Shown piece by piece: positions 5,298 through 11,030 of a stretch of DNA of 34,177 nt. Below the pieces are notes generated by a model. It had not been told where the DNA came from, searched no databases, and saw only the letters and a list, made by a program, of their open reading frames with translations. The DNA comes from Actinomycetota bacterium (GTDB lineage Bacteria > Actinomycetota > Acidimicrobiia > Spongiisociales > UBA5794). Each line of letters starts with the position of its first letter. Within the stretch, counting starts at the first letter, position 1. Location: the NCBI GenBank assembly GCA_030125685.1, contig JASJYA010000007.1, forward strand, positions 1 through 34,177, given 5' to 3'. The position numbers were made by a program, and so were the translations under genes.

Positions 5298-6060
5298 CTG
5301 GCATCTGGCATCTGGTATCTGTCAAGACGTACATCGCTATCGATGCGGCGACGGCGGCGTTGAGGCTCTCCGCGTTACCCGGCATCGGAAGGGTCAGTCT
5401 TCGATCAGTTTCGGCAATGAGTTCGCGTGTAAGTCCGTGGGCTTCGGATCCGATCAGAAGGGCGATCGGCGCCTGGCGACGCTCGGGCGCATCTCCCCCG
5501 GAAACCACGGCAGCGACGACTTCGAGGCCGACCTTGCGCGCCTCTGCGACAGGATCGCGCGATGTGCTGAGATGACGGCCGAAGTGTGCTCCTGCGCCTG
5601 CCCGAATCACTTTGGGGCTCCAGGGATCCGCAGTCGTGCCGGTGACACACACATCCCATCCGAACGCCGCAGCCGACCTGATCATCGTCCCAACGTTTCC
5701 CGGATCTGACACGTCCGTGATGATCAACGTGTCTCTCGACCGGATCGCCAGGGGATGTGGGATCTTGATCATCGCAACAGGGCTCTGGGGTTGCTTGCTA
5801 TCGGCCGCGGCCACAAGAACTTCAGCCGACACGACGACCGGTTCCCAACTGCGGTCTGTACACACGCTCGCGGTCGTCGCGTCCGATTCCACCCTGAGCA
5901 CAGCCTCGGGCACGATACCGACATCGACCGCGAGGCCGAATACCTTCGGCCCCTCGATGAGTGTGTGGCCACTCTCCCCCCTGCCGCGAGAACGATGAAG
6001 CCTCTTGAACTGCTTGACGAGCGGGTTGCTAAACGATGTAATCGGCGTGACCGGAGTCAC
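5281..6060 (-). CDS. TrmH/SpoU-family 23S rRNA 2'-O-methyltransferase
   Basis: SPOUT-fold methyltransferase that probably methylates ribose in 23S rRNA; it is often annotated TrmH or RlmB-like in this neighbourhood. The 259-aa protein has an N-terminal substrate-binding domain ([10 protein letters not shown], then LIEGPK, about residues 10-90). The three SPOUT motifs follow: [15 protein letters not shown] near 115-130, [10 protein letters not shown] near 202-211, and [21 protein letters not shown] near 225-245, which form the knotted SAM site. It starts with a GTG overlapping the rplT stop (GTGA). The extreme C-terminus (TDTRCQMPD) is encoded by the CCAGATG heptamer array and does not look like conserved family sequence. 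A change in repeat number would frameshift this tail. The exact rRNA target cannot be told from sequence. Confidence 0.9.
5295..5322. repeat. four-unit heptamer array CATCTGG
   Basis: Plus-strand units are CATCTGG at 5295-5301, 5302-5308 and 5309-5315, then TATCTGT at 5316-5322, with an exact 7-bp period. On the coding (minus) strand the word is CCAGATG. The array lies inside the last codons of the methyltransferase gene and contains the first in-frame ATG of pheS. Because 7 is not a multiple of 3, the three ATGs in the units fall in three different frames. It is one of several 7-bp-period arrays in this window. Confidence 0.85.
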
Positions 6061-6431
6061 CCGGCCTGTACCGTCTCCGGCGCCGCTGCAACGGCTACCT
6101 CAACAAGAGCGGCGAACGCTTCCGGATCGTTCACAGCCATCTCGGCGAGCATCTTGCGGTCGACCTCGATGTCGGCGGCCTTGAGTCCAGCCATGAAACG
6201 CGAGTACGTCGTACCGTTGATCCGGGCCGCAGCGTTGATCCGCTGAATCCAGAGGCGACGGAACTGCCCCTTGCGTGCGCGACGATGGTCATACGAGTCC
6301 TGCATCGCGTGCATCACCTGCTCGCGAGCCGCGCGGTACCTCCGTGAGCGTGCCCCGGTGTAACCGGAAGCCCGCTTCATTATCTTCTTGCGCTTCTTCC
6401 GCGCGTTCACAGATCGTTTGACACGAGCCAT
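6057..6431 (-). CDS. rplT: 50S ribosomal protein L20
   Basis: Primary 23S rRNA-binding protein needed for early 50S assembly; in some bacteria it also represses its own operon. The 124-aa protein has the basic N-terminal helix ([19 protein letters not shown]) and the globular C-terminal part ([16 protein letters not shown], then [24 protein letters not shown]). The C-terminal extension past residue 115 is Ala/Val-rich and slightly longer than in most L20 proteins. Only nine bases separate it from rpmI, and AGGAGGCC lies just before its ATG. It completes the conserved infC-rpmI-rplT set. Confidence 0.97.
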
Positions 6432-6440
6432 GAGGGCCTC

Positions 6441-6635
6441 CTAGTTGTTCAGCATGCGGTCGACGCGCTTGGCGTTCTTCCCGCTGAGGTTGGCTTTACC
6501 TTCAACCCGGCGCCAACGCGCCGAGGACTTCTTGTTTCTGTTATGGCCCCGCCAGGCGCGGTCGTGCCTGATCTTGCCGGTGCCTGTGCGCTTGAATCGC
6601 TTCGCAGCACCCTTATGGGTCTTCATTTTCGGCAC
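6441..6635 (-). CDS. rpmI: 50S ribosomal protein L35
   Basis: Small basic large-subunit ribosomal protein. The 64-aa sequence opens [15 protein letters not shown], the invariant L35 N-terminus, continues [15 protein letters not shown] and has the usual length. It starts with GTG, preceded by AGGAGG at a 5-nt spacing. It lies 63 nt downstream of infC and 9 nt upstream of rplT, so all three are co-transcribed. Confidence 0.96.
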
Positions 6636-6698: not shown

Positions 6699-7265
6699 CT
6701 ATTGGTCACTGTCGCCTAAGTTGTCGCTCTGGTCGTCACTCGGATTGTCGAGCGGCTGGTTCTTCAGTGGCATAAGCACCATGGTCATGTTCCGTCCTTC
6801 GAGCTTCGGCATCGTCTCGATTTCGCCGTAATCAGAAACGTCATCGAAGAGGCGTTTGAGGATGTCCCTTCCAAGCTCAGGGTGGGCCATCTCTCGGCCT
6901 CGGAACCGCATGGTGCATTTGACCTTGTCACCCTGGCGCAGAAATTTGACGACACGCTTCCGTTTCACATCGAAGTCGCTCGACCCGATTTTTGGTCGGA
7001 ACTGGACTTCCTTGATCACGGTGCGGGTCTGATTCTTGCGAGCCTCGCGAGCCTTGACCGACTGGTCGTACTTGTACTTACCGTAGTCCATCATCCTGAC
7101 GACCGGCGGCCTGGCGTCCGGCGCGACCTCGACCAGGTCGAGTCCCAACTGGGCGGCGAGCCAACGAGCTTCATCAATGTCTTTCTCGCCGATCTGTGCA
7201 CCGTCCGGCGCGATAAGGCGCACGCGCTTGACGCGAATTCGGTCATTGACCCGTGGCTCTGCGAT
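6699..7265 (-). CDS. infC: translation initiation factor IF-3, probable AUC start
   Basis: IF-3 binds the 30S subunit, prevents premature 50S joining and discriminates against non-canonical start codons. The 188-aa protein has the N-terminal domain (EPRVNDRIRVKRVRLI, then DLVEVAPDARPPVVRMMDYGKY, about residues 3-72), a lysine-rich linker, and the C-terminal domain (KEVQFRPKIGSSDFDVK, then VKCTMRFRGREMAHPELG). The conserved protein begins at IAEPRVND, and that isoleucine codon is ATC at 7263-7265. A perfect AGGAGGT ends 6 nt before it. No ATG, GTG or TTG lies near this point in frame. The open frame does run on to 7505, but through a hairpin and a repeat array and without IF-3 homology. Rare starts are a known autoregulation device of infC (AUU in E. 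coli). The family call is certain; the start is strongly supported. Confidence 0.95.
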   Translation of the reverse strand: MAEPRVNDRIRVKRVRLIAPDGAQIGEKDIDEARWLAAQLGLDLVEVAPDARPPVVRMMDYGKYKYDQSVKAREARKNQTRTVIKEVQFRPKIGSSDFDVKRKRVVKFLRQGDKVKCTMRFRGREMAHPELGRDILKRLFDDVSDYGEIETMPKLEGRNMTMVLMPLKNQPLDNPSDDQSDNLGDSDQ

Positions 7266-7271
7266 GAGAGT

Positions 7272-7278
7272 ACCTCCT
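7272..7278 (-). promoter_or_regulatory. infC Shine-Dalgarno (AGGAGGT) that fixes the AUC start
   Basis: Seven bases fully complementary to the 16S rRNA anti-Shine-Dalgarno, followed by six bases and then ATC GCA GAG (I/M-A-E). This spacing is ideal. The nearest ATG codons downstream in frame (the MM of RMMDYGKY) would delete the conserved N-terminal domain. Confidence 0.85.
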
Positions 7279-7318
7279 GGTTCGTGGCGGTCTACGCGCA
7301 GGAGGGTACCTACAAGAA

Positions 7319-7349
7319 CATGGGCGGCACGGCTGGGTGCCGTCCCATG
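7319..7349 (-). promoter_or_regulatory. stable hairpin in the infC 5' leader
   Basis: CATGGG CGGCAC, a six-base loop (GGCTGG), then GTGCCG, a single T bulge, and CCCATG: a 12-bp stem in plus-strand writing, equally palindromic in the mRNA. In the transcript it is followed by TTCTTGT, a poor U-tract, so it is not a convincing terminator. It ends 53 nt before the AUC start. It could be a leader attenuator or a structure used for autoregulation by IF-3 or L20, but I do not recognise a known L20 leader fold. Confidence 0.55.
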
Positions 7350-7427
7350 GTCGGAACCCGAACCACCTTGAACGGCGGGCAGGTGGGAAGCAGGCGCTTC
7401 CTCTTGCGTCGATTGTGCGACGGAGGG

Positions 7428-7570
7428 TAGTACGTATCGCGTAGTACGTAGCACGACAGAGTGAGAGCCACGTCCGGCGAACAATACCAAGAGCGACGAA
7501 GCCACGCCGATGCCGGCTCGCCTCTCTCACCGGTGCAGAAGGCGTACTACGTCATACGTACTACGTAATA
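7428..7570. repeat. inverted pair of TAGTACG heptamer arrays (infC-ribH gap)
   Basis: Left arm 7428-7455: units TAGTACG, TATCGCG, TAGTACG, TAGCACG. Right arm 7543-7570: CGTACTA, CGTCATA, CGTACTA, CGTAATA, which is the same word on the other strand. Each arm is four units with an exact 7-bp period, and with a one-unit shift the arms match at 19 of 21 positions. Nested inside is a second inverted repeat, GTGAGAG (7461-7467) against CTCTCAC (7524-7530). The whole 143-bp block can fold into one long interrupted hairpin. The right arm runs into ribH and supplies its TAG stop and last three codons. This block and the leader hairpin account for most of the 295-nt gap between infC and ribH. Confidence 0.85.
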
Positions 7571-8031
7571 CGCATCTCTTCCAGCGCCCTTGCTGCTTGC
7601 ACCGCAGTCATCGCGGCTTCCCTACCCTTGTTCTCCGGCCCTGGCTGTGATCGAGCGACTGCGGCGTGGACATCTCGCACAGTGAGTATCCCGAAGGCGA
7701 TAGGTACACCTGTATCGAGCTGCACGCGCATGAGACCCTCAGAGGCGCGATGCGCAACGTGTTCGTAGTGGTCTGTATCTCCCTCGATCACCGTTCCAAG
7801 GCAGACAACAGCGTCATATCCTGCCCGTGCTAGCCGCTGGGCGAACAACGGAAGCTCGAAGGCGCCAGGCACATCCACGACCCGCACCTCGGTTGCACCC
7901 GACTCCTTGAGAAATTCGAGTGCTCCTGCCTTAAGTCCTGACGTAATCTGCTCGTTGAACATCGCCACAACGACGCCTATTCGAAGTCCCTCGGCTGATG
8001 TGAGTCCATCGTCCCTAGCGTCGATGCGCAT
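7561..8031 (-). CDS. ribH: 6,7-dimethyl-8-ribityllumazine synthase
   Basis: Condenses the ribityl-aminouracil product of the RibD pathway with dihydroxybutanone phosphate to make lumazine, the riboflavin synthase substrate. The 156-aa protein has the family motifs FNEQITSGLKAGA near residues 25-37, VPGAFELP near 54-61, CLGTVIEGDTDHYEHVA near 78-94 (phosphate- and substrate-binding loop), FGILT near 113-117, and NKGREAA near the C-terminus. Its ATG overlaps the ribBA stop by one base (TGATG). The last residues (RIT) and the TAG stop come from a TAGTACG heptamer array, so the gene's 3' end seems to have been set by the repeat. It is the last gene of the riboswitch-controlled operon. Confidence 0.96.
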   Translation of the reverse strand: MRIDARDDGLTSAEGLRIGVVVAMFNEQITSGLKAGALEFLKESGATEVRVVDVPGAFELPLFAQRLARAGYDAVVCLGTVIEGDTDHYEHVAHRASEGLMRVQLDTGVPIAFGILTVRDVHAAVARSQPGPENKGREAAMTAVQAARALEEMRIT

Positions 8032-10890: not shown

Positions 10891-10897
10891 CAAGCGT

Positions 10898-11015
10898 CCC
10901 CTTTCTCCCATCCGGACTCTTACCGTCGGTTCCGGAACTCCACCGGATCAGCCCCGTAGCCGGGGGTCGCGGACTCTCACCGCCGGTCGGGAATTGCACC
11001 CTGCCCTGAAAGAGG
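10898..11015 (-). promoter_or_regulatory. FMN riboswitch (RFN element) upstream of ribD
   Basis: The minus strand carries the conserved RFN blocks in order: AGGGCAGGGTG with AATTCCCGACCGGCGGT, AGAGTCCGCGAC, a variable CCCCGG/ACGGGG hairpin, CCGGTGGAGTTCCGG, CCGACGGTAAGAGTCCGGA, and TGGGAGAAAGG. Helix P1 is an 8-bp pairing of CCTCTTTC (11008-11015) with GAAAGGGG (10898-10905). The second strand is also the ribD Shine-Dalgarno. FMN binding should therefore lock P1 and block ribosome access, giving translational control of ribD-ribE-ribBA-ribH. No intrinsic terminator lies between it and ribD. Confidence 0.96.
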
Positions 11016-11030
11016 TATTCCGTAGAATCG

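Follow-up and report, generated by a model that had tools for sequence, protein, structure and literature searches.

A strongly supported ATC start for the IF3 gene infC, downstream of an L20-leader-like RNA, in an actinobacterium

The gene for translation initiation factor IF3, infC, in the 34,177-nucleotide stretch of actinobacterial DNA analysed here (hereafter the window) appears to start at ATC. This assignment is strongly supported by conservation of the site and by closed reading frames upstream of it, and suggests that AUC is used in the cell. We give a probability of about 93% to the overall explanation, in which infC starts at AUC under feedback by IF3, with an L20-leader-like RNA upstream. 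infC heads an infC–rpmI–rplT operon on the minus strand, behind ribH, in which the products L35 and L20 are confirmed by Pfam (Table 1). From position 7278 the start site reads AGGAGGT ACTCTC ATC GCA GAG CCA CGG GTC. A previous sequence-only reading had proposed an AUC start with this Shine–Dalgarno sequence, a six-base spacing and ATC GCA GAG as the first codons; all of this is borne out, on a strand that it left unstated.

Table 1 Features of the infC operon and its upstream region in the window
Feature	Positions	Strand	Basis
infC coding sequence from ATC, 188 amino acids plus stop, translation initiation factor IF-3	6699..7265	-	TIGR00168, Pfam
ATC start codon	7263..7265	-	Sole start-like codon at the Shine–Dalgarno site; ATC in all close relatives
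Shine–Dalgarno AGGAGGT, six-base spacer 7266-7271	7272..7278	-	AGGAGG invariant in relatives
L20-leader-like structured RNA, directly upstream of infC, between ribH and infC	7311..7411	-	Rfam RF00558, covariation, own model
Leader hairpin P1, GGAAGC-GCCT-GCTTCC	7386..7401	-	Pairing 100% across 21 sequences; sequence nearly invariant
Terminator-type hairpin of leader, then TTCTTGT (7318-7312)	7319..7349	-	Covariation
Possible Shine–Dalgarno-masking hairpin, CCTCCTG (7305-7299) with CAGGAGG (7279-7273)	7273..7305	-	Predicted fold
rpmI (L35), GTG start with AGGAGG	6441..6635	-	Pfam
rplT (L20), ATG start with AGGAGG	6057..6431	-	Pfam

The frame is clearly that of IF3, scoring 205 bits against NCBIfam TIGR00168 (cut-off 60), with 5lmn_X as the best PDB match for its product. 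Position 4 of the TIGR00168 profile aligns with the third codon counted from ATC, which places ATC at the N-terminus of the IF3 family, as had been claimed; in a profile search, Pfam IF3_N begins at the sixth codon and is followed by IF3_C. The claim that no ATG, GTG or TTG is available nearby also holds: the nearest in-frame canonical codons are GTG at 7454, 63 codons upstream, and GTG at 7223, 14 codons downstream and inside the conserved N-domain, neither with a Shine–Dalgarno match. The 7-base match of infC itself ranks second among 30 gene starts in the window, with only pyrB (8) longer. A search of the organism's own genome for 16S rRNA, which would give a direct reading of the anti-Shine–Dalgarno sequence, found none. 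The 1.88 Mb genome contains three copies of the pattern AGGAGGTN6ATC and none of a reversed control pattern; of the three sites, only that of infC opens a recognisable gene, and the other two run into stops.

ATC and AGGAGG are found at the same distance in all eleven close relatives (L002–L011, L081), which are Acidimicrobiia or Actinomycetota metagenome-assembled genomes, a few with other labels, and whose proteins are about 83–96% identical. In one of them, L008, the frame is closed by a TAA six codons ahead of ATC, and the interval contains no canonical start; L005 and L010 also have in-frame stops shortly upstream. This comparison of starts among relatives had been suggested as a check, and its expectation is matched both by ATC in eleven of eleven and by the prevalence of ATC, ATA and ATT in a broader survey. 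The survey drew on 160 infC loci from genomes of the phylum and class and 80 named loci; 238 were analysed, including the window, mostly from Actinomycetota. Its starts are the in-frame start-like codons with the best Shine–Dalgarno match, called automatically and partly checked by hand. They are ATC in 130 loci, ATA in 56, ATT in 18, GTC in 10, GTA in 10, TTG in 3 and CTG in 2, with nine loci lacking a Shine–Dalgarno sequence; one GTC call (L167) is ambiguous and one CTG call (L169) is probably GTA. No ATG was placed as the start in any of the 238 loci, and ATH, GTC or GTA accounts for 224 of the 229 with an assigned start.

A test that is independent of the Shine–Dalgarno rule points the same way. 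Counting back from the conserved Arg-Ile/Val-Asn motif, a stop closes the frame within 25 codons in 130 loci, and 106 of these have no ATG, GTG or TTG between the stop and the motif. On an N-domain tree built on about 66 residues, at least 35 third-base changes occur among ATC, ATA and ATT (an approximate count) and none leads to ATG. The downstream genes serve as controls: with ATH codons permitted in the search, only ATG or GTG starts were found for rpmI (126 of 126) and rplT (75 of 75). Shine–Dalgarno matches of at least 7 bases precede 41% of infC genes, as opposed to 2% for rpmI and 15% for rplT. The avoidance of AUG by IF3's own gene across a whole phylum is a clean and repeated natural experiment on start-codon choice.

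Some lineages are predicted to start infC at GTC or GTA. L142 and L168 exemplify the arrangement in families f15, f49 and f52: an extended Shine–Dalgarno sequence (AGGAGGTGA) is followed by an in-frame TGA, by GTC 2–3 codons on and finally by the IF3 motif. GTC starts are predicted here in L094, L106, L109, L111, L142, L144, L153, L168 and L194, and a GTA start in L147. GTA is the sole start-like codon in Rubrobacteraceae (L029, L034, L037, L038, L040) and in family f19, giving predicted GTA starts in these five loci and in L190, L202 and L236; in L029, the frame is interrupted by TGA six codons ahead of GTA. Families f22 (L185, L200), f34/f42 (L098, L154, L165, L187) and f45 (L177) have apparently abandoned the non-canonical start, which suggests that it is not essential everywhere. 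Their IF3 is about 15–17 residues longer at the N-terminus, with an apparent GTG or TTG start that is conserved in f22 and f34/f42, where the frame runs about 17 codons further; some of these loci have no Shine–Dalgarno sequence. Two loci of family f12 (L146, L240) have a strong AGGAGGTG before infC, but at normal spacing the frame offers neither AUN nor GUN, and L076, from Dehalococcoidia, has CTG at ideal spacing from AGGAGG.

Upstream, the sequence-only reading described the start site correctly and overlooked the structured RNA. A default Rfam search does not report this RNA either; a permissive search by E-value matches it to RF00558 (L20_leader) with 27.8 bits and E 0.0013. Since this score is below the curated cut-off of 58.7 bits, we call the RNA L20-leader-like. 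Across 21 sequences, the proposed helices have 92.0% of cells paired, compared with 37–54% when the helices are slid, and 12 pairs show changes on both sides; no shuffle was as high as the observed values. In the terminator-type hairpin, seven of nine counted pairs are altered on both sides in relatives. The U-run that follows is clear in L006, L022 and L019 and weak in the window. The element AAGNGGARGCGCCTGCTTCCCACC is common to close relatives, about 145 bases before the IF3 motif. A mini-ORF, ATG TTC TTG TAG (7321-7310, minus strand), overlaps the end of the terminator-type hairpin and its tail; it is not conserved as an ORF and was rejected.

Our own model, R1, gives 88.8 bits on the window leader, which is one of its training sequences. 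In whole-genome searches, a site of this type lies directly before infC in all 15 genomes by which the class sample represents the window's order, ten of them outside the training set. A second, weak match to the leader model (22 bits) is present elsewhere in the genome, at G000:C64:5006-5089 (L246). In the phylum, 30 of 198 genomes carry a match to the Rfam L20 model with E ≤ 0.001; among the matches listed, most directly precede infC, judging by infC coordinates, and only one exceeds the curated cut-off. The L20 leader has been described as narrowly distributed to Firmicutes (PMC6097659, 2018), and if the RNA reported here binds L20, a regulator described as specific to that group would extend to another phylum. 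Between leader and gene, the predicted hairpin that may mask the Shine–Dalgarno sequence is kept as tentative because its CCTCC, which the window shares with several close relatives, is lost in L008–L011.

Together, these elements suggest how the operon may be controlled. The strong Shine–Dalgarno sequence would set the 30S subunit on AUC, where initiator tRNA would pair with the first two bases and mismatch at the third. IF3 would reject such complexes, so that abundant IF3 would lower infC translation and scarce IF3 would raise it, with rpmI and rplT downstream retaining ordinary starts. Excess L20 may bind the RNA at 7311-7411 and would probably terminate transcription of the whole operon by attenuation. 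In E. coli, by contrast, L20 regulates the translation of rpmI. IF3 works against start codons other than AUG, GUG and UUG, which produces feedback in E. coli. Feedback in the window organism is proposed by analogy with that published work, and such feedback is also stated for Streptomyces infC (PMC5472188); in vitro, IF3 lowers the use of mismatched third positions (PMC10158994). Across Actinomycetota, we favour, with some reserve, a general picture in which selection holds the infC start at a codon with any third base but G, GUC in f15/f49/f52 and GUA in Rubrobacteraceae among them. With an L20-type attenuator of the kind described in Firmicutes upstream in many lineages, including that of the window, IF3 and L20 would each control their own operon.

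Could translation begin elsewhere? Upstream of ATC, no stop interrupts the frame for 87 codons, back to TGA at 7529, and the ORF finder lists an extended form of 268 amino acids, as would follow from an upstream GTG or TTG start (for example GTG 7505) and an IF3 with an 80-residue N-terminal extension. We regard this as very improbable and reject the extended protein: none of the upstream in-frame GTG or TTG codons has a usable Shine–Dalgarno sequence, the region is a conserved structured RNA and no conserved protein, the extension has no Pfam domain, and relatives L005, L008 and L010 interrupt the frame close upstream. A shortened IF3 starting at GTG 7223 is less probable still, to the point of being negligible. 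This codon is the nearest canonical one on the downstream side, but it has no Shine–Dalgarno sequence, its use would remove the conserved RVNDRIRV of the N-domain, and the conserved AGGAGGT would be left without a purpose.

A different alternative accepts the AUC start and holds that it merely keeps IF3 synthesis low, with no functional feedback. In its favour, feedback in the window's group is a prediction, and non-canonical starts of other genes in S. aureus give about 10% of AUG expression (PMC13009471). We nevertheless consider this explanation unlikely. E. coli IF3 disfavours codons of this kind, and in Streptomyces the GTC-started SigR declines when IF3 is raised (PMC5472188), so that some dependence of AUC on IF3 is to be expected.

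The AUC start with IF3 feedback has close counterparts, and the reading of the start is sound but describes an already known design. E. coli infC has an ATT start and IF3 autoregulation (PMC5472188); as in the window, an IF3 gene with an AUH start precedes ribosomal protein genes with canonical starts, although autoregulation was measured there on AUU and feedback on AUC is deduced here. Streptomyces infC starts at ATC and is commonly misannotated (PMC5472188). It shares codon, phylum and misannotation risk with the window gene, which belongs to another class and has the L20-leader-like RNA upstream. The AUC start had been presented as noteworthy for an actinobacterium, whereas a non-canonical infC start is the rule there and was already published for Streptomyces. 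B. subtilis infC–rpmI–rplT, with an ATT start (PMC6097659), similarly combines a non-canonical codon with an L20-type leader and terminator hairpin; the window differs in its ATC, its sub-threshold leader score and its weak U-run. S. aureus infC likewise has an AUH start with a strong Shine–Dalgarno sequence, but the codon is AUA, the host is a Firmicute and the site was mapped directly with initiation-trapped ribosomes (PMC13009471), as opposed to a start predicted from sequence. The GTC starts predicted in f15/f49/f52 resemble that of the IF3-repressed Streptomyces sigR, described as the first known GTC start (PMC5472188), although sigR is a sigma factor gene.

What is new here is the phylum-wide extent of the design, the predicted GTC and GTA starts and the covarying L20-leader-like RNA. 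infC is probably misannotated in many genomes, with false N-terminal extensions or truncations. Elsewhere in the window, an FMN riboswitch (RF00050, 111 bits; 10896-11017, minus strand) precedes ribD–ribE–ribBA–ribH, and a repeated TACGTAGTACG-type sequence lies at 7425-7575, between ribH and the L20-leader-like RNA.
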